Of a DNA stretch of 54,459 bases, positions 7,877-37,815 are shown one piece after another. Source of the DNA: a virus. The notes under the pieces were generated by a model. That model searched no databases and was not told the DNA's origin. It saw nothing but the letters and a program-made list of their open reading frames with translations. Location: IMG/VR virus record IMGVR_UViG_3300008452_006594, positions 1 through 54,459 of that record; one strand, written 5' to 3'. The number at the start of each line of letters is the position of its first letter. Position 1 is the first letter of the stretch. The position numbers and the translations under genes are program-made.

Positions 7877-8329
7877 ATGATTTATTGGTTTACAGGTCAA
7901 CCTGGTGCGGGTAAGACCTCAATTGCTGAAGTACTAATTACAAAACTACCAAATAACACCTTTCACGTTGATGGTGATGATCTAAGAGAAATCTTTAATA
8001 ACAAAGATTATAGTGAATTGGGAAGAAGAAAGAATATTGAACTTGCTCAACACATTACACATTTTCTACATAACAAAGGTAATGATGTTATTGTAAGTTT
8101 AGTTTCTCCTTACAGAGATCAGAGAGAAGAATTTAAATCAAAGTTGGGTAATGACATTATCGAGATATATGTTCATACCGAAAATTTAAGAGGACGTGAA
8201 GACTTTCACGTTAAGAACTACGAAGAACCATTAGAAAACTTTTTAGACATGGATACTTCAGATGTAATAATTGAAACTTGTGTTAATCAAATTTTAGGAT
8301 ATGAAAAACTACATAGCAAAAGCAGATAA
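7877..8329 (+). CDS. cysC: Adenylylsulfate (APS) kinase
   Basis: 150 residues. It has the P-loop GQPGAGKTS (7-15), the substrate motif DGDDLRE (32-38), GRRKNIELA (49-57) and SPYRDQREEF (77-86), in the order expected for APS kinases; FHVKNYEEP (110-118) matches the family's C-terminal signature. The enzyme phosphorylates APS with ATP to make PAPS, the sulfate donor for sulfotransferases. It is slightly shorter than the usual 170-200 residues, losing part of the mobile lid. The next gene starts 29 nt before its stop. With the sulfotransferase at 5373 it forms a self-contained donor-making and donor-using pair. Confidence 0.85.
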   Translation: MIYWFTGQPGAGKTSIAEVLITKLPNNTFHVDGDDLREIFNNKDYSELGRRKNIELAQHITHFLHNKGNDVIVSLVSPYRDQREEFKSKLGNDIIEIYVHTENLRGREDFHVKNYEEPLENFLDMDTSDVIIETCVNQILGYEKLHSKSR

Positions 8330-8699
8330 GAAAACCTCATCAACAGACAGACAATACTCAATGTTTGTTGGGAGATGGCAACCATTGCATGAAGGTCATC
8401 AATGGTTATTTAATCAAGCGTTAGAGGAAGGTAAAAACGTTTTGATTTGTATTAGAGATGTAAAACCTGACGATAAAAATCCTTTTACTCCTGATGAGGT
8501 TAAAAAGAATATTGAGGACCACTATGGTAACTTAATCACTGAAGAGCGTGTTAAGGTAATTATTATTCCCGATATAGAATCAATTAACTACGGTAGAGGT
8601 GTTGGATACGACGTAATTGAGCATGTACCACCACAAAATATTCACGACATTTCTGCGACTAAAGTAAGAGAACAAATGAAGAAAGAAGGTAAGATATGA
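8301..8699 (+). CDS. HxGH nucleotidyltransferase (NMNAT/cytidylyltransferase superfamily; ATP-sulfurylase-like role possible)
   Basis: 132 residues. GRWQPLHEGH (24-33) carries the HxGH active site and ISATKVREQMKKEG (117-130) the second nucleotide-binding ISxTxxR motif. The superfamily transfers AMP or CMP to a phosphate-like acceptor and includes NMN adenylyltransferase, cytidylyltransferases and ATP sulfurylase. Sequence alone does not settle the substrate. Overlap with APS kinase makes an APS-forming activity an attractive guess, while NAD salvage is the usual role for short phage members. The first 20 residues are absent from the core fold; an internal ATG at 8361 (MFVGRWQ) is an alternative start. 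Confidence 0.75.
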   Translation: MKNYIAKADKKTSSTDRQYSMFVGRWQPLHEGHQWLFNQALEEGKNVLICIRDVKPDDKNPFTPDEVKKNIEDHYGNLITEERVKVIIIPDIESINYGRGVGYDVIEHVPPQNIHDISATKVREQMKKEGKI

Positions 8700-9139: not shown

Positions 9140-9148
9140 TTACCTATT
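9124..9148. terminator. Palindrome at convergent gene ends (possible two-way terminator)
   Basis: A perfect 9-bp inverted repeat, AATAGGTAA / TTACCTATT, has a 7-nt loop and contains the stop codons of both converging genes. It lacks a clear T-tract on either side, so it may act as an RNA-stabilising hairpin rather than an intrinsic terminator. Confidence 0.4.
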
Positions 9149-12049
9149 GTCCATATATATTATCACTTCATTATAATATTCTATGAATTCGTCATTCCAT
9201 AGATTCCATTTAATATCAAGACCATCGACTGAATAAACTTGAATATTATTGAATTGGGATAAAATATTATCTCTAAACCATCTAAACTTACATTCGTGGT
9301 AATTTGAGTCGTTTCTGAGATGAAACTCTGTTACAATTTTTGGAATTGATTTTAAAAATTCAATGTTACTTTCTTGAAAAACATCGTATTCCCCACCTTC
9401 ACAATCACACTTCAAAAAATCAATTTTATCAATTTTATATTCATCTAAAAATTCTTTGAAACTAAATGTCGGGACGTTTTCTGTCATATTATCCCAAGTG
9501 ATTTCAATTTTCTTTTTATCAGTTATTGCTCCCTGAATAATTTTTACATTTTCTTGACCTACATTGTTTTTTAAAATTTTGATTTGGTGACTTAATGGTT
9601 CGACAACATAACATTGTTTTGGTTTTTTCGGTAATATTTTATAAGTAAATGGACCTAAAGATGCACCTAAATCTACAACAATGTCACCCTCCTCAACCTC
9701 AAAAAATCTTTCATAAGTATTACCTTCAAATATTTCTTCCTCAGCTTGTTTTACATACCATTCACTTCTTCCACCCCAATCAAAATTAATTTCTTGAGTT
9801 ATTTCCTTATTTGTGATTTTATTAATTTCTGAAATAACCATTTCAGAAGTAATTTGTTTTGTACATTCAAATTGACGATCAGTTCCTTTATGGTGAGGAC
9901 ACCAATTCCAATCACCAGCATCTAATCTTTCTGAATTAAAACATCCGTGACAAACATTTTGATTTATAACTCTATAGGTATCTAAAGTTGTTTCTGCCCA
10001 CTTTGCACTAAAACCTGAAATTAAAATAACAGGAAGTTTACATGCCCAAGCCAACCAAGATAAACCTGATCCTAAACCAATAAAAAATTCACATGTTGAT
10101 AAATCATCTATAACTTCTTGTATGTTCCCACCTTTATATATTGTAACTCCTTTTGGGTAAAAATTATTCATATATCCGTCTCCTTCTTTTGAATAAACCA
10201 TACACTCATATCCTAAACCTATAAGATAATCAACAACCTCTTGCCAACCACTTTGATTATTCCAATATTTTGCTTGTGCTGTTGAATGGATCCCAATACC
10301 AACTTTTTTAACTTTTTCTACTTTTGGTAGTTTTAATTTTGGTCTAATTTCAGAATAATCTAACCCTAAAATATCTGTTGCTGTTTTTTGAAGTGGTTGT
10401 CTTCTGAAATCATTTTTATGATTATTTTTATCGTATAAACCTTCTGATGTATAATACCAACCAAGCCTGTATTGTGCATATATGTTTTCAACAACTTTAC
10501 CTGGATCAACAAACTCAATTTCAGGGTATTGGTCAATAAACAAGTCGTTCATGAAAGTTGAAACGATTAATTTGCAATTGTGTTTTTGTCTAAAAACCTC
10601 ACAGTATGGAACCCAAGCCATTGTATCACCTAATGATTTTGACCCGAAAGAAATGTAAACTCTTTTGTTTGTCAGATCCAATGTATTTGTGTAAATTAAT
10701 TCGTCATTTTCTCTTATTTCTGTTTTCCATTTTACGTAATATTCTGTGTTAATTTTTACCCAATGGTTTATAGGTAGAGTATTTTCGTAAATTAAATTAT
10801 CATTATCATCAAATATTTTTATATTAAATGGATTTTCACTCTGACCTAAAATTTCAACAAAAGGATTTATAACGAAATGTTGATTAACAATGTAATCGTT
10901 TTTAATTTTTTCATTTTTTTGTTTAGGTGTATGCATTACATTTTTATAAAAATAATATAAGCTGTCCCCAAAATCATTTTGATATTCAATCGTATAATTT
11001 GAGTCCTTATCTATTAAATCGATTAAGTTATTTTTTATTTCATTATAATCGTCACTTGATATAGGATAAATGTATTTGTCAAACATACCTACATACTGAG
11101 GTAAATTTCTTGTCAATATTTTTAATCCATAATTAATAGATTCTCTAATAACTAATGGATTACATTCCCAAGTTGAGTTAAACATTAAAACATCAGATGC
11201 TATCATGAAATCATCGACATCGTCTCTTTCACCCCAAACCGTCACATTACTTGGTAAGTTATTCATAATTGGACCCCAATAATCCTCAAAATTTGGTGCT
11301 TGGTTTCCAATAAAATGAAAATGAACGTTGGGATGAGATTCCTCAAATAATCTTGCAACTTCAACACCCTCTTTTTGATTTTTACCCGATGTCCACAGAC
11401 CAACGTTTAAAACATGAGTCTTCATATGATCTAAACCTATTTTATCTCTTACCTCAATTTTTTTAAGAAGAGGTACTCTATGATCATCATAATATATTTC
11501 TAATTCATCTAAAATTGGTTTTACTTTATTTTCATATGGATACATTATGAGTTCTTTTTTAGATGGTGTGTCTTTAAAAGAAACTTGATTATGGTATGGA
11601 GTTACAAGACAATAGTAATCAGGATGTAATTTTTTATTATTAGGATCAAACCAAATGTTATGACAAGTTTCTACTACTCTCCAAGTTCTATTATTATCAT
11701 ATAATTCGTTTAATAAATCTAATGGCATTTTATTAAAACTTTCAAATGCTTCAGGAATTTCTTCAGCATGTACTATATCTATTTTGTTTTCTTTTATAAT
11801 ACGAATCAATTCATATTTTTTTTCTTTTTCTGTTGTTCCACCAAGAGTCCAAAAATGACCAGTTTCCAATAAATCAATAATTTTATTTCTTTGCACAACA
11901 TAAGTGTCACTAAACTGAGAATACTCAACTAAAAAAATTTCAATTTGATTTTTGTATTTTTGAAGGGACTGAATTCTTTTCAAAACAAATTGTGGCATAC
12001 CCCCTGTTGAAAGGTGTGGTGTAAGATATAATAATTTAATTTTTTCCAT
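9140..12049 (-). CDS. Three-domain fusion: GT4 glycosyltransferase, TibC-like O-heptosyltransferase, FkbM methyltransferase
   Basis: 969 residues. Residues 1-370 form a GT4-type GT-B enzyme (TPHLSTGGMPQFVL at 10-23; TWECNPLVIRESINYG at 293-308). Residues 385-745 match the bacterial autotransporter heptosyltransferase (TibC) family: a small beta domain (FNIKIFDD to HWVKINTEYYV), then ISFGSKSLGDTMAW (466-479), GIGIHSTAQAKYW (584-596) and a four-cysteine cluster C700, C703, C717, C729 like the TibC iron finger. Residues 775-969 are an FkbM methyltransferase (VVDLGASLGPFTY, FLKCDCEGGEYDVF). TibC-family enzymes O-glycosylate repetitive adhesins, so a fibre or host adhesin is a plausible target. 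No membrane segment. The gene runs opposite to its neighbours, with no clear TATTTAT motif before its ATG. Confidence 0.8.
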   Translation of the reverse strand: MEKIKLLYLTPHLSTGGMPQFVLKRIQSLQKYKNQIEIFLVEYSQFSDTYVVQRNKIIDLLETGHFWTLGGTTEKEKKYELIRIIKENKIDIVHAEEIPEAFESFNKMPLDLLNELYDNNRTWRVVETCHNIWFDPNNKKLHPDYYCLVTPYHNQVSFKDTPSKKELIMYPYENKVKPILDELEIYYDDHRVPLLKKIEVRDKIGLDHMKTHVLNVGLWTSGKNQKEGVEVARLFEESHPNVHFHFIGNQAPNFEDYWGPIMNNLPSNVTVWGERDDVDDFMIASDVLMFNSTWECNPLVIRESINYGLKILTRNLPQYVGMFDKYIYPISSDDYNEIKNNLIDLIDKDSNYTIEYQNDFGDSLYYFYKNVMHTPKQKNEKIKNDYIVNQHFVINPFVEILGQSENPFNIKIFDDNDNLIYENTLPINHWVKINTEYYVKWKTEIRENDELIYTNTLDLTNKRVYISFGSKSLGDTMAWVPYCEVFRQKHNCKLIVSTFMNDLFIDQYPEIEFVDPGKVVENIYAQYRLGWYYTSEGLYDKNNHKNDFRRQPLQKTATDILGLDYSEIRPKLKLPKVEKVKKVGIGIHSTAQAKYWNNQSGWQEVVDYLIGLGYECMVYSKEGDGYMNNFYPKGVTIYKGGNIQEVIDDLSTCEFFIGLGSGLSWLAWACKLPVILISGFSAKWAETTLDTYRVINQNVCHGCFNSERLDAGDWNWCPHHKGTDRQFECTKQITSEMVISEINKITNKEITQEINFDWGGRSEWYVKQAEEEIFEGNTYERFFEVEEGDIVVDLGASLGPFTYKILPKKPKQCYVVEPLSHQIKILKNNVGQENVKIIQGAITDKKKIEITWDNMTENVPTFSFKEFLDEYKIDKIDFLKCDCEGGEYDVFQESNIEFLKSIPKIVTEFHLRNDSNYHECKFRWFRDNILSQFNNIQVYSVDGLDIKWNLWNDEFIEYYNEVIIYMDNR

Positions 12050-26512: not shown

Positions 26513-27640
26513 TTAAATTACATATATCTGACGAGGCATAGCTCTAAACTTAAGAGTTTTGTTTAAGTTTTCTGCTAGTAAAGCTTCTCTTTCCATAACT
26601 TTTTCAGGACGAAGTCTTGTTAATCTTCCTTCAGCTCCGATCAATTCTTCTATTAGTTTAGCCTTTTCATCTTTTCCTTCAGTACCTAATGTTGCATAAT
26701 CCATAGTTAAGTCACCATCAGGAGTCTTTAAGTTACCACTAAATTTACCACGAACTCTTGCTAAAGTTTCTTTACAGTATGCTATAAACCATCTACGAAC
26801 CCAAACTTGTGCAGGATTATTTAGTTTGTACCAACTTATCTTATTGAATGGTACATCTGAAGGTAAAAGAACAATATCAGGATTATCCGCCAAACATTTG
26901 TCTCTATCACCTTGTGAAGTATCATAATACCAATACCAAACTTGACCTTTTGCCAACTCCGCATTACCAAAGTCAAATTTACCACCTGGTGTGTTTAAAA
27001 GGTGTAGTGCTTTTTTACCACCAGGAAGTGCAGTGATATAATAAGTCAAATCACCCGCAAATATTCTTCTTTGGATATTAACTTCTTGCATTCTTAATAA
27101 TGTATCAAATGCTGGTGTTAAATAATAACTTCCTGCCATATTACCAATTTGTGCAAGCCCTCCACCACCACCAAGTCCAGTTCCATTACCAACACCCGCA
27201 AAACCACCCAAACCAAACATTAAGTTGTTTAATGTTGATGGGGTAAACCATAATACTTCATTTATCTCACGACCTGCAGGTATTTCATAAATCTGTTGGT
27301 TGGGTACTAACTGAATATAATCTTTTTTGATTTCCCAATCACCACCTGCTTGTAATCCAACTATTTTTGAATACGCATAGGTATAACGAGTTTCAAAGTC
27401 TAAACTTTTAGTTATGAAAGCTCTTGATAAAGATTGGGTATCTAAATTCAAATTATTTAATGTGGTCCATTGAGATTCAATTAACCAATCTTGGACATAT
27501 TGAGAATAATCGTCAATTGAATATTCTAATAATGTGTCCATCATTTCGTCTTCCAATTCCACAGATCTTAAAGGTGCACCTAATAAGTGTCTAACTTTTT
27601 GATAGAATTGACTTCTTTCTGGTTCGTCGATTATTGCCAT
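26513..27640 (-). CDS. 13: Neck protein, T4 gp13-like
   Basis: 375 residues (T4 gp13 is 309). The N-terminus VRHLLGAPLRSVELEDEMMD (16-35) followed by YSQYVQDWLIES matches the gp13/cyanophage neck pattern LGAPVIEINVDDDQ..D..L.YY. The C-terminus WVRRWFIAYCKETLARVRGK (about 281-300), then FSGNLKTPDGDLTMD, matches the family's W..Y..A..K...G..L.KF.G...P.G..L.G signature. A Gly-rich insertion (about 140-165, GLGGFAGVGNGTG) is unusual. gp13 caps the portal and joins head to tail. Preceded by a TATTTATA element in sense orientation. Confidence 0.7.
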   Translation of the reverse strand: MAIIDEPERSQFYQKVRHLLGAPLRSVELEDEMMDTLLEYSIDDYSQYVQDWLIESQWTTLNNLNLDTQSLSRAFITKSLDFETRYTYAYSKIVGLQAGGDWEIKKDYIQLVPNQQIYEIPAGREINEVLWFTPSTLNNLMFGLGGFAGVGNGTGLGGGGGLAQIGNMAGSYYLTPAFDTLLRMQEVNIQRRIFAGDLTYYITALPGGKKALHLLNTPGGKFDFGNAELAKGQVWYWYYDTSQGDRDKCLADNPDIVLLPSDVPFNKISWYKLNNPAQVWVRRWFIAYCKETLARVRGKFSGNLKTPDGDLTMDYATLGTEGKDEKAKLIEELIGAEGRLTRLRPEKVMEREALLAENLNKTLKFRAMPRQIYVI

Positions 27641-27680: not shown

Positions 27681-29876
27681 TTAGATGGGGCAAATGATCT
27701 TTTCTCTATCTTTAGATTTGACAGTCAAAGTGGTAGACTCTAAGGTGTTTTTGTCTTTGAAAAAGAATCCATTAATTTTGTCGTATTCAGGTTTTATTCT
27801 AAATCTTATTGATAATCTTTTTTCATCACAACCTCGTTGACCTTTGTTGGACCAATATAAATCTATATATTCAATAGGAACAATTAAGTCACCTTCATAA
27901 ATTATACCTGACATTTTGCTTTTAACCTTATTTAAGTACTCCTCAGCTGAAGGTTTACTATTTAACCAAGTGTATAATTTATCTATCAATTCATTATATA
28001 ATTTTATGTATATTGGTTTTTCACTTGATAATGAAGATTGTTTAAATATAGAAAAGAACTCAGACAAATAACTATCAATGAATGGGTCCATTTTTTTAAC
28101 CTCAAAAAGTGAATTAGTAGGAAATATTGTATTACCATCCTCATCTTTTAGTTCTTGTTTAGTTATTAAATCCGCTTTGATATAATAACTACCACTTTTG
28201 AATGACTTAGATAAACAAGAAGTTATTTGAAAAAAAGTATAGTTTAAACTTTCAGTACCTGAATGGATTTTTTTCAAAAGGTCAATTAATGTTTCTTTTG
28301 CATCATCAGAACACTTATAATTCAATTGTAGTTTTGTTTGGTTTTTTTCAAAATAATCACCAACAAATCTATCTTCATATTTACTGTGTTCTTTTTGTCT
28401 TGCATATGCTAACAATCCTTCAATATCATTTGGTATTGTTGTTACGTACCTTTGTTTATTTAGTATTTTTTTAACTTGGTCATCCTCAAATTCTTTATCA
28501 ACAATGAAGTCCGATACTAATTCTAAAAAGTTTACAGTTCTATTTGTGTCTTGGAGAGCCAATTGAATTATCACAGGAAATGTACCGACATTTTTTTTGC
28601 CAAAAAATTGGTCTAGTATAAAAATTGATCTTTCTAATTCATGAATCAAATATTGATCTTCTAAACCATCTCTAAAATTTTTTAATTGACAATATGGTGA
28701 TTTTTCAGATTTTGATTGTACACATAAATAATCTATTTTAGAACTTCTTCTAAGAGCAATTTCATTTATTTCTTCAGATTCATTAAGTTTTTTTTTTGAT
28801 GTTCTACTCACAAATAAATCATTAACAAATTCCCAATTAACAACATCCCAAAACTTTTTAATATATTCATCACGTTTGTTTTGATATTTCAAATAGTAAG
28901 CGTGTTCCCAAACGTCCAAACCTAACAGAGGATACCCACCTTTTTTAACTATGTTCATCAATGGATTATCTTGATTTGGTGTAGACATAATCTTCAAATT
29001 ACCTTCACTGTTAAGATACAACCAAGCCCATCCTGAACCAAAACGATCCTGAGCGGCTTTGTTAAACTCATCCTTCATTTTTTTTATGTTACCAAAATCT
29101 TTTTTAATTTTTTTCAAAATTTCTCCTCTTGGGAGTTGTTTTTTTGGGGACAACATCTTCCAAAATAATGCATGATTAAATGCTCCACCAGCATTATTTC
29201 TAACCTTATTGTCAAATTTACTTATAGTTCTTACAATATCCTCTAACTCCAAATCACCATCAATGTCTTTGATTGCTTTATTCAATTTATCAACATATCC
29301 TTTGTAGTGTTTATTGTAATGAATATTCATAGTTTTTGAATCTATAAATCTATTCAAAGAAGAATATGAGTAAGGTAACTTTTCAATACCAATTGATTTC
29401 ATTTCAGAAATCAAATTTTTTTTGATTAATTGTTTTTCGTTTAATAAAATTTGTTCAGATAGAAGACTAACTTTTCCTTCGATTCCTTTATGTTCATACA
29501 TCAGTTCTTCAAGTTCAGGATATTTTTTTTCAAATTTTTTAACAATCTGTCCCGCAAATGCATTTGCTTCGTCTTCATTAATACCACCAATGTTAGGTCC
29601 GTGTTCTCTACCAAGAATTGTCATTTGATATTCATGAACCCATTCATGGGCTAATGTTCTCATGATGTCACGATTTAATCTTCCTTTAGCAAGAACTTTA
29701 ATTAGGTGATCACCTCTTCTACTACCTGTAGACATCTCACCTTTTCTACCATTTAAAAACATAATTTTTAAATCATTTTTAAGTGGGTATTCTTCTTGTA
29801 GTAAAGAAATAAACTTTTTAACAAAGTCTTTTCGATTTTTAATATCGGGATTTTCGTATTTGATAGAAACTTTCAT
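27681..29876 (-). CDS. Fusion: HExxH metallopeptidase, Mn-type superoxide dismutase, and unknown C-terminal domain
   Basis: 731 residues. Residues 30-130 carry LAHEWVHEYQ (75-84), an HExxH zinc motif, with a likely third ligand in NEDEANAFA (100-108). Residues 165-355 are a complete Fe/Mn superoxide dismutase: LPYSYSSLNRFID, HYNKHYKGYV (H186), NNAGGAFNHALFWKMLSP (H235), FGSGWAWLYLNSEG, STPNQDNPL, LLGLDVWEHAYYLKYQNKR (D321, H325) and FWDVVNWEFV. All four metal ligands are present, and Gly at 231 with Gln at 302 favours the manganese type. Residues 360-731 are unrecognised, with several Cys. SOD turns superoxide into peroxide and oxygen. A TATTTATC element 4 nt upstream suggests late, perhaps virion-linked, expression. 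Confidence 0.85.
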   Translation of the reverse strand: MKVSIKYENPDIKNRKDFVKKFISLLQEEYPLKNDLKIMFLNGRKGEMSTGSRRGDHLIKVLAKGRLNRDIMRTLAHEWVHEYQMTILGREHGPNIGGINEDEANAFAGQIVKKFEKKYPELEELMYEHKGIEGKVSLLSEQILLNEKQLIKKNLISEMKSIGIEKLPYSYSSLNRFIDSKTMNIHYNKHYKGYVDKLNKAIKDIDGDLELEDIVRTISKFDNKVRNNAGGAFNHALFWKMLSPKKQLPRGEILKKIKKDFGNIKKMKDEFNKAAQDRFGSGWAWLYLNSEGNLKIMSTPNQDNPLMNIVKKGGYPLLGLDVWEHAYYLKYQNKRDEYIKKFWDVVNWEFVNDLFVSRTSKKKLNESEEINEIALRRSSKIDYLCVQSKSEKSPYCQLKNFRDGLEDQYLIHELERSIFILDQFFGKKNVGTFPVIIQLALQDTNRTVNFLELVSDFIVDKEFEDDQVKKILNKQRYVTTIPNDIEGLLAYARQKEHSKYEDRFVGDYFEKNQTKLQLNYKCSDDAKETLIDLLKKIHSGTESLNYTFFQITSCLSKSFKSGSYYIKADLITKQELKDEDGNTIFPTNSLFEVKKMDPFIDSYLSEFFSIFKQSSLSSEKPIYIKLYNELIDKLYTWLNSKPSAEEYLNKVKSKMSGIIYEGDLIVPIEYIDLYWSNKGQRGCDEKRLSIRFRIKPEYDKINGFFFKDKNTLESTTLTVKSKDREKIICPI

Positions 29877-29905: not shown

Positions 29906-31672
29906 TTATCGTCTATTGTTAATTAGGTTTAATATTTCTTCAACAATGTCACCTGTGTTTTCTACAATACCATCACCCATTACGGTTCTAATGATTTCTT
30001 TTTTACGATTAAGGATGTCATAAATTGCACCTTCAATCGTATTTTCAAACAGTGGATAATAAACCAATACGTTTGATTTCTGACCATATCGATAAGCTCT
30101 ATCTTCAGCTTGGGCGTGTTCTGCAGGAACAAAAGATAAATCGTTCATAATCACAGCTTCTGCAGATGTTAAAGTTAAACCAACTCCTGCCGCTTTTAGG
30201 TTACCAACAAAAACTTTGACTTTATCGTCATTTTGAAATTGGTCGACAGCTTGTTGACGAATTGCATTAGAACAACTACCATCGAGATAAACCGCTTGTT
30301 TTTCAAAATGTTGGTATATGGTTTGGAGTGTGTCTGTAAAGTTTGTGAATATTATAACTTTCTTACCTTGATCAATGATATTTTCAGCAAACTCAATTGT
30401 TTGTTTTGTTTTTTCATTCGCAATTACTTTTCTAACTTTCATTAGTTTAGAAAACTGAACCGTTAAAGATGAAGACTCATCGGGGTTTTTATCATACCAA
30501 TCAAAATATTCACCCATTAAATCCTCATACTCTTTTGATTTTAATCTTAGGTAAACAGGAGTGATAATTTTATCTGGTAAGTCTAAAACATCTTCTTTTA
30601 ATCTACGAAGAATTTGTTTTGATGTCCTATCTCTTAATTCTTCAAGATTAGATGCACCTGAAACATTCCACACTTTTCTTTTACCTGCTGTAAATTGAAA
30701 CCCTTGACAATACCTAATCGCATAAGCCTTCCAATTCTGAGCAACAGAACTTTCAATTAGATTTAACAAATTATAATAATTCATTGGTCGAGAAGTCATT
30801 GGTGTTCCTGTTAACAACCAAACTCTATCTATTTTTTTTGCAAAACTATTAATAATCTTTGTTCTTTGTGCCTGAACATTTGATATCATGTGAGCTTCAT
30901 CTAAGATTACCAAATCAAATCCACTTTTTAATAATAGAGACTCATCCTTTTTTTTCGGATCTGAGTCGTGAAAATTTTTAAGAATGTCATAATTAACAAT
31001 GACAAAATCATCTTCAGTTGAAAATTTTTTACCTTCCGCAATAAAAACAGGTCTATCTGAATAATTTGCAATTTCTCTTTGCCAATTTATTTTTAAAGAT
31101 GCGGGACAAACAATTAATATTTTTTTTGCACCTGTCTCTAATGCTGCAATAATAGTTGAGGTTGTTTTACCAAGACCCATATCATCAGCAAGAATAAATC
31201 TTTTTGATCCTGCTAATTTTTCGATTGCAATTTTTTGATGATCAAGCGGAGGACGATGGGAATATTTCGAATAATCAATACTAACAGACTGTACATTATG
31301 TGTTTTAATTAAAGCCGATTTTGGAATCCAAAATTCGGATAGTTTATCCTTCTCAAAAAACTTACCCCAAACGTGATAAGACTTTTCCTTCTCAACCAAA
31401 AGCTTTTCAATAAAAATTTCCTTTGGTACCTCAATAAGATATTTTTCTTCAGCAAACTTTTTGGCAAAGTAGTTGTCTAACTCGACCCATTTACGAGCAA
31501 TCTTAGGCGTTGAGTCGTAATATGTTGTAATATATTCGGATTGACTTCTAGTGGGATAAAATTTACTAGAAACTTCTTTTTTATGTTTTAGATATAGTAT
31601 ATAATTATTCGCACCACTATAACTTTCGAGCAACTCTAATGCTTTATGTTCTATCAGTGTTTTTGTTTCCAA
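29906..31672 (-). CDS. SNF2/SMARCAL1-like superfamily 2 helicase
   Basis: 588 residues. Motif I ILADDMGLGKT (160-170), Ia LIVCPASLKINW (186-197), II LVILDEAHMIS (254-264), III WLLTGTP (285-291), V GVGLTLTSAEAV and VI AEDRAYRYGQ are all intact. The order and the RYGQ ending are those of SNF2 translocases, closest in layout to the SMARCAL1/annealing-helicase type seen in many phages; T4 UvsW is a looser analogue. Probably remodels replication forks or recombination intermediates. The first codon is TTG (31670-31672), directly after an in-frame stop and with no internal Met for over 160 residues, so the TTG start is needed. Confidence 0.85.
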   Translation of the reverse strand: METKTLIEHKALELLESYSGANNYILYLKHKKEVSSKFYPTRSQSEYITTYYDSTPKIARKWVELDNYFAKKFAEEKYLIEVPKEIFIEKLLVEKEKSYHVWGKFFEKDKLSEFWIPKSALIKTHNVQSVSIDYSKYSHRPPLDHQKIAIEKLAGSKRFILADDMGLGKTTSTIIAALETGAKKILIVCPASLKINWQREIANYSDRPVFIAEGKKFSTEDDFVIVNYDILKNFHDSDPKKKDESLLLKSGFDLVILDEAHMISNVQAQRTKIINSFAKKIDRVWLLTGTPMTSRPMNYYNLLNLIESSVAQNWKAYAIRYCQGFQFTAGKRKVWNVSGASNLEELRDRTSKQILRRLKEDVLDLPDKIITPVYLRLKSKEYEDLMGEYFDWYDKNPDESSSLTVQFSKLMKVRKVIANEKTKQTIEFAENIIDQGKKVIIFTNFTDTLQTIYQHFEKQAVYLDGSCSNAIRQQAVDQFQNDDKVKVFVGNLKAAGVGLTLTSAEAVIMNDLSFVPAEHAQAEDRAYRYGQKSNVLVYYPLFENTIEGAIYDILNRKKEIIRTVMGDGIVENTGDIVEEILNLINNRR

Positions 31673-31706: not shown

Positions 31707-31714
31707 TATTTATC
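31707..31714 (+). promoter_or_regulatory. TATTTATC element before 31729
   Basis: In the divergent gap between the helicase and the neck/tail block; 14 nt before the ATG. Confidence 0.5.
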
Positions 31715-36984: not shown

Positions 36985-37815
36985 ATGAATTACAAAAAAT
37001 TTGTTAAAGAAATTTTATCTGAAATCATTCACGATCAGATGAAACCCACAATGAAGTATTATGCTTTTGACTGGGATGATAACCTTATGTATATGCCAAC
37101 AAAAATTTATCTTGTAGATGATAAAGGTAAAACTGTTGGTATGTCTACGGAAGATTTTGCGGAGTATAGAACTGATATTGGTAAAGAACCGTTCAAATAT
37201 GAGGGTCACACTATTGTAGATTTTGATAAGGATGCCTTCAGAGACTTTAAAGTACCAGGTGACAAGGCTTTCATTAGTGATGCTATGAAAGCAGAAACAG
37301 GTCCTGCATGGAGTGACTTTGTTGAGGCGGTTAATAATGGGTCTATTTTTGCAATCATCACAGCAAGAGGACACACCCCTTCGGTTCTTAAAAATGCGAT
37401 TTATAATCTAATTAAGAAAAACAAACACGGATTAAGTGAAAAAGAACTTGTTAAAAATCTTAAAAAATATAGAGATTTGGCAGATGAAGAAGAATTGTCG
37501 GATGATGAATTGGTAAGAGTATATTTAGATATGAACAAATATCATCCTGTAAGTTTCGGTGAAGGTTCTGCTGCGAATCCTGAAGAACTTAAAGTAAAAG
37601 CAATGAGTGAGTTTATGAGATACGTTCAAGAACTTTCAAGGAAACTACAAGAAAAAGCTTTTATGAAAAATAAAATAAGTAATTATTTTGTACCTTATAT
37701 TGGGTTTTCAGATGATGATTTAAGAAACGTTCAAGCAATGAAGAAACATTTTGATGATGAATCTGGATTAGATATTTATCATACAGGAGGAGGTAAAAAA
37801 ACTAAATTTGAATAA
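36985..37815 (+). CDS. HAD-superfamily phosphatase
   Basis: 276 residues. YAFDWDDNLMYMPT (26-39) is HAD motif I with D29 as nucleophile and D31 as general acid. IFAIITARGH (121-130) is motif II (Thr126). YIGFSDDD near residue 240 supplies the acidic motif IV. The cap region is helical and charged. HAD enzymes hydrolyse phosphomonoesters; a nucleotide or DNA 3'-phosphate substrate is usual in phages but cannot be picked here. Oddly placed between tail sheath and tail tube, and independently transcribed. Confidence 0.75.
   Translation: MNYKKFVKEILSEIIHDQMKPTMKYYAFDWDDNLMYMPTKIYLVDDKGKTVGMSTEDFAEYRTDIGKEPFKYEGHTIVDFDKDAFRDFKVPGDKAFISDAMKAETGPAWSDFVEAVNNGSIFAIITARGHTPSVLKNAIYNLIKKNKHGLSEKELVKNLKKYRDLADEEELSDDELVRVYLDMNKYHPVSFGEGSAANPEELKVKAMSEFMRYVQELSRKLQEKAFMKNKISNYFVPYIGFSDDDLRNVQAMKKHFDDESGLDIYHTGGGKKTKFE

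Follow-up and report, generated by a model that had tools for sequence, protein, structure and literature searches.

The prohead protease gp21 of bacteriophage T4 cleaves after L/I-X-E (PMC9026906), and the T4 protein Alt is cut at both of its ends (PMC9026906, PMC5694885). In phiKZ and SPN3US, a protease related to gp21 cleaves head proteins behind a glutamate, the SPN3US motif being A-X-E, and the available part of that account describes no superoxide dismutase (SOD) for these phages (PMC5694885). The chlorovirus PBCV-1 encodes a late-expressed Cu/Zn SOD, A245R, that is packaged into its virions, and cells infected by PBCV-1 contain less superoxide than cells infected with virus that is devoid of the SOD gene (PMC7019647). 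An Fe/Mn SOD has been reported among the genes of putative Microcystis viruses (PMC12542629). Capsid-targeted and ejected proteins are already known. Our searches of the open-access literature showed neither an SOD carried as cargo in phage heads nor a polyprotein of head cargo whose nuclease-like modules are swapped, and both would apparently be new.

We analyzed a 54,459-nucleotide stretch of viral DNA (IMG/VR record IMGVR_UViG_3300008452_006594, hereafter the window) in which one gene encodes an HExxH domain, an Mn-type SOD and a C-terminal module, separated by two linkers. The product is probably a head-cargo polyprotein of a T4-related phage, which would be targeted to the capsid, processed by the prohead protease and, at infection, ejected along with the DNA. 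It resembles the internal head proteins and Alt of T4 in its (L/I)-X-E sites and in having cargo behind short targeting-like sequences, and relatives of the window phage share with T4 a T4-type major capsid protein (MCP) and an S77 protease. Unlike these T4 proteins, it strings several enzyme modules together in a single chain that contains internal sites, has an SOD as its predicted cargo and carries an HExxH domain before the first site. Its linkers are rich in (L/I)-X-E, where the SPN3US motif is A-X-E. Cu/Zn SODs differ in fold from Fe/Mn SODs. A245R is the SOD of a virus, as is that of the window, but it is a Cu/Zn enzyme of an algal virus, and no polyprotein is described in the part of the report available (PMC7019647).

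The SOD-fusion gene and its relatives

The gene is a single open reading frame that starts with ATG and sits between the gene of an SNF2-type helicase and a neck-like gene (Table 1). An earlier note on this DNA had proposed that an HExxH domain, a full Mn-type SOD with all four metal ligands and a C-terminal domain are encoded together, next to a neck gene. The Pfam matches and the ligands, along with Gln302, bear this out for the protein, as do the phrog_211 match and its conservation for the neighbor. A PHROG search with the full protein returned no match.

Table 1. Parts of the SOD-fusion gene and its two neighbors, in window coordinates
Feature	Residues	Position	Strand	Remarks
Full gene (HExxH domain, linker 1, Mn-type SOD, linker 2 and type A module)	731 aa	27681..29876	(-)	
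HExxH zincin-like domain	1-118	29523..29876	(-)	HEWVH at 77-81; E101, E103, N105 invariant
Linker 1	125-162	29391..29504	(-)	Candidate prohead-protease sites after E141, E147, E158
Mn-type superoxide dismutase	159-360	28797..29402	(-)	Pfam, PDB fold match, ligands
Linker 2	361-375	28752..28796	(-)	Candidate sites after E366 (LNE), E372 (INE)
Type A C-terminal module	376-731	27684..28751	(-)	PD-(D/E)XK-like motif E501, K567xD569, E592xK594
Neck / head-tail adaptor-like neighbor gene		26513..27640	(-)	phrog_211, 5.5e-9; in 45/47 loci
SNF2-type helicase neighbor gene		29906..31672	(-)	PF00176, 9.5e-31; in 47/47 loci

Pfam recognizes the SOD over residues 165-353 (Sod_Fe_C, 6.6e-41; Sod_Fe_N, 3.1e-21), and the scores of 76.1 and 138.9 bits for PF00081 and PF02777 pass the respective cut-offs of 27 and 20.9. 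The metal ligands H186, H235, D321 and H325 are invariant in all 47 representatives of the family (defined below), as are Y194 and the Mn-type residues G231 and Q302, which we take to have the roles of the Mn-type Gly and Gln. When the model of the window protein is compared with the PDB, the best match is a SOD (Z 20.4 over 192 residues, rmsd 3.5). The Mn-SOD of Sphingobacterium sp. T2 (6gsc) shares the fold, the metal ligands and the Mn-type glutamine with the window SOD, but bacterial Mn-SODs of this kind are free enzymes while that of the window is fused, and none of 28 bacterial loci examined has an HExxH domain adjoining the SOD. In a thinly sampled tree, one branch sets the 47 phage SODs apart from the rest (support 83/62; recovered in 78% of the bootstrap trees). 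Among the cellular matches listed, the highest identity is 54%, found in a sample of 199 genomes from the order to which the Fluviicola genome belongs, and the best cellular matches among those listed belong to Bacteroidota-order genomes.

The N-terminal domain has H77, E78, H81, E101 and E103 in 37 of the 37 representatives in which it is present, a combination of HExxH and downstream Glu as in IrrE/ImmA or SprT-like zincins. Its fold neighbors among viral models are IrrE/SprT-like phage proteins, and its Pfam score as SprT-like stays under the cut-off (13.5 bits vs 25.6).

The earlier note knew of no other fusion of this kind. That view did not survive a search of metagenomic phages for the same architecture: a first scan of IMG/VR found relatives encoded in 232 confirmed stretches, the best 80 of which we retained, and a second found at least 583 confirmed stretches, not necessarily all fusions. 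Judged from these sequences, the SOD fusion is not rare among environmental phages. The same note had considered that the fusion might be an assembly chimera. This is ruled out by 100% identical proteins in four other IMG/VR contigs, from samples 3300032050, 3300032116, 3300031951 and 3300032093, together with conserved synteny, and the fusion stands.

The architectures found among 334 loci, a redundant set since one contig may contribute several, are HExxH-SOD, HExxH-SOD-A, HExxH-SOD-B, SOD-B'-A, SOD-B'-B, SOD-A and SOD with other tails; type A or B modules also occur alone or behind unrelated N-termini. The 125 distinct SOD ORFs were reduced to 48 representatives below 90% SOD identity, with L112 left out for its two SOD stretches, and then to 47 by dropping L111, a SOD filed as phage that has bacterial-looking neighbors. 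Conservation of the neighboring genes is nearly complete (Table 1), the neck match being absent at L167 and L170, both of them short loci. The HExxH domain is carried by 37 of the 47 representatives and is lacking in 10, and the 37 form one clade on the SOD tree (99/99). At locus L057, the gene is broken within the SOD into two ORFs of 202 and 523 aa, by sequencing error or decay.

In a collection of phage records, 30 match the protein, and none of these covers 80% of it. Of the matches examined, H10 has bacterial-looking neighbors and H15 is a Vibrio phage with a free SOD. Some phage-filed records among H1-H14 carry SODs close to cellular ones, and H6 and H7 are named as Salmonella.

The element TATTTATC had been read in the earlier note as an indication of late expression. 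We rejected it as a late promoter: the window holds 5 matches vs 6.24 expected from shuffling, a count at chance level, and the match at the SOD-fusion gene lies 4 bases upstream of the ATG, which is too close for an ordinary -10 box. The reverse complement, GATAAATA, presumably resembles the T4 late box. It is read on the minus strand at 31707-31714, as one site only, and lies 34 bases ahead of the listed helicase start; the helicase gene is the first of the helicase-SOD-neck row. Elsewhere in the window, small overlapping APS-kinase-like and cytidylyltransferase-like genes at 7877-8699 (+) each match part of phrog_10255, and a gene at 9140-12049 (-) encodes 969 aa that include glycosyltransferase and FkbM methyltransferase domains.

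Prohead-protease motifs and head genes

Confidence of the window protein model drops below 50 at residues 129-139 and 147-171, in the region of linker 1, and at 361-377, in the region of linker 2. It does so at 205-212 and 221-226 inside the SOD as well, and low confidence is therefore no special mark of the linkers. What sets them apart is their content of (L/I)xE. We counted this motif in the 40 residues before and the 40 residues after the SOD of the 47 representatives and compared the counts with shuffles. The region before the SOD contains 154 matches in 1861 residues, or 8.3 per 100 (shuffled mean 75.6, maximum 98), and the region after it 81 in 1560, or 5.2 per 100 (shuffled mean 28.1, maximum 41), excesses that are not to be read as probabilities since the 47 rows are related and (L/I)xK is also above shuffles within the SOD (319 vs 184.7). 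Within the SOD, (L/I)xE occurs 62 times in 8991 residues, or 0.69 per 100 (shuffled mean 70.9), and over all 48 representatives there are 0.62 matches per 100 residues in the HExxH domain, 1.2 in type A and 1.4 in type B.

Control motifs behave differently. Neither (L/I)xD (7 vs 9.0 shuffled in linker 1, 12 vs 11.0 in linker 2) nor (L/I)xK (45 vs 86.4 and 51 vs 53.5) is raised, and (L/I)E is lowered in both linkers (56 vs 77.8 and 11 vs 29.0). Linker 1 shows a slight rise of (V/M/F)xE (39 vs 24.9) and a rise of (L/I)xxE (119 vs 73.4) that is not seen in linker 2 (30 vs 27.5). This last excess means that part of the linker 1 pattern may reflect an amphipathic helix; the model has a low-confidence helix at residues 132-161.

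The placement of the candidate sites is a stronger point than the motif excess in linker 1. E158, directly before the SOD, is invariant in 47/47 representatives. Where more than 100 residues follow the SOD, at least one site is found within 40 residues of it in 39 of 39 proteins, and two or more in 33. In another 7 of the 47 proteins the chain stops at the SOD and no site follows, but the tails are only 5-8 residues long, so that the absence says little; L167, with a tail of 41-100 residues, was counted with neither group. The window protein has 12 (L/I)xE matches, 7 of which lie outside both linkers.

Sequences like the linkers recur at the N-termini of unfused relatives, as would be expected if the linker were a targeting propeptide. 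The 10 representatives that lack the HExxH domain open with a sequence much like linker 1, for example LLTE..LISEAKKIGIEKLPYAY at locus L242; the ORFs were taken from stop to stop, and these forms thus include a few residues upstream of the likely start. The separate type A gene of L231 opens with MKIIITEEQYRILNEG. More generally, separate type A genes open with ITExQ...LxE, and similar sequence joins the modules in L262, L265 and L266. L309 carries repeated modules with an INE site at the head of each. Because its HExxH domain comes first, the window protein has no targeting sequence at its N-terminus, the N-terminal position being found only in HExxH-less and separate-module relatives. A further ORF, of 1007 aa (L225), encodes a polyprotein in which ILTEDQYKKL sequences separate a hydrophobic domain at the N-terminus, an HExxH domain of another kind (HEIQH) and a type A module.

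Ten long contigs carry the gene, and although they are not known to be complete, a T4 gp23-type MCP is encoded in four of them and an S77 protease in three of these four: G001, G003 and G008 have both, G002 has the MCP only, and neither was found in the other 6. The SOD-fusion protein of G008 is 91% identical to that of the window. In G001, G003 and G008, the MCP carries [FY]LINE|A immediately ahead of its region of alignment to T4 gp23. The best matches of the MCPs are uncultured phage LR756508, Microcystis phage Mel-JY01 and Flavobacterium phage immuto, each at less than 50% identity. A scan of 34 window proteins against PHROGs returned no named MCP or prohead protease.

Proteins with site-rich N-termini are more numerous than in shuffles. 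In a 272-kb relative, 52 of 282 predicted proteins have at least two sites within residues 1-32, against a mean of 16.2 and a maximum of 31 in shuffles, and in Flavobacterium phage immuto (150 of 160 kb) the corresponding figure is 20 of 176, against a mean of 9.3 and a maximum of 19. Judging by the N-termini only, these phages likely possess a large set of head-targeted proteins.

G001 encodes, at L090-L103, families of mostly small proteins with common N-termini such as MKIIITExQ, MKRIIRLTESDLARIVRRVINEE and MNLQEQIRRILKEE, which are perhaps head-targeted. In the window, a gene between those of the sheath and the tail tube (36985-37815, plus strand) opens with MNYKKFVKEILSEIIHDQMKPTMKYYAFDWDDNL and belongs to no Pfam family, and G001 has a protein closely similar to its product. 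We take this start to resemble a T4 capsid-targeting sequence, and FDWDDNL is presumably a HAD phosphatase motif.

Exchangeable C-terminal modules

The C-terminal domain of the window protein, about 356 aa long, did not match any Pfam family even with E values of up to 1 allowed. Its type A motif residues (Table 1) are invariant across 28 aligned sequences and are located on or beside a helix and strands of the model. Type B has the motif E137, D177, Q191xK193, and in types C and D, E...D...SxK and E...D...QxK were read by eye from 4 and 5 aligned sequences, respectively. All four module types, A to D, carry PD-(D/E)XK-like motifs and appear nuclease-like.

The type B model (mean pLDDT 86) finds its best compact fold matches in the SPARDA nuclease subunit (Z 7.5), archaeal Hjc (7.2), I-Ssp6803I (7.2), NhoI (6.5) and DpnI (6.1), with HinP1I and RecU lower in the list, all of which we take to be PD-(D/E)XK nucleases. 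The same list includes long-helix proteins up to Z 7.0 and the human tRNA splicing endonuclease and Rep15 at 5.5-5.9, and a Z below 8 is weak evidence alone. Homology between types A and B was rejected (hhalign probability 0.3%). The type B profile gave 4 matches to PDB sequences, the best at E 0.26, which we took as chance, and neither type A nor type B has a match at E 0.001 in 50,697 phage records.

The modules behind the SOD are swapped within the family. The C-terminal label switches 16 times on the best SOD tree, a number to be read in the light of the well-supported branches, which alone force just 3 or 4 changes per label, and of the label 'other', which pools several types.

A candidate head cargo and its alternatives

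Packaging in the virion, one of the roles raised in the earlier note, is the best-supported reading, on grounds other than those given there: the T4-type prohead-protease motifs in both linkers and the similar N-termini of unfused relatives. We infer a sequence of targeting, cleavage, packaging and ejection, along with the activity of each enzyme. The linkers would be capsid-targeting propeptides with (L/I)-X-E sites, by which the precursor would join the prohead core. The T4-type prohead protease would then cut it into an HExxH protein, an SOD and a nuclease-like module, and a cut after E158 would leave an SOD of about ordinary length, starting MKSIGIEKLPY. The pieces would be retained in the head and pass into the cell together with the DNA. 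There the ejected SOD may remove superoxide during the opening minutes of infection, and the other two pieces, nuclease-like and peptidase-like, may act on host or competitor targets. Among known systems, Alt of T4 and the packaged SOD of PBCV-1 come nearest to this. On balance we favor this scheme in its full extent, in which one precursor would deliver a metallopeptidase, an SOD and an exchangeable nuclease at DNA entry and the targeting sequence would serve as the joint at which modules are swapped.

The SOD might instead be the product of an auxiliary metabolic gene that acts in the cytosol, made during infection to shield the host and the replicating phage, with the linkers as plain spacers. 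This is unlikely in our view. The SOD is intact, its best cellular matches among those listed are in Bacteroidota-order genomes, and the Fe/Mn SOD of putative Microcystis viruses has been read as host buffering (PMC12542629). A cytosolic role nevertheless leaves the (L/I)xE-rich linkers and the similar N-termini of unfused relatives unexplained, and since the SOD ends the protein in 7 of the 47 representatives, it does not need a downstream module.

A packaged SOD could also work inside the particle, guarding the DNA and the head proteins from oxidants in the water. The linker motifs, the similar N-termini and the site-rich N-termini of the 272-kb relative would fit such a role equally, but the nuclease-like and peptidase-like companions are better placed in a cell, and many T4 internal proteins, as well as Alt, are ejected (PMC9026906). 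We therefore consider it improbable. That the HExxH domain, invariant in 37/37 and adjoining linker 1, serves the precursor as a self-processing or maturation protease, with the prohead protease uninvolved, is very improbable given that the 10 of 47 representatives devoid of this domain keep similar sites.

If the head-cargo reading is true, this would be, within the open-access literature, the first known case of an SOD packaged in the head of a bacteriophage. It would mean that phages pre-load an antioxidant enzyme, and that superoxide at the time of DNA entry is a selective pressure on infection. Targeting sequences that double as cleavable joints would account for the evolution of head cargo through the exchange of modules, and the head cargo of uncultured T4-related phages would become readable from sequence.
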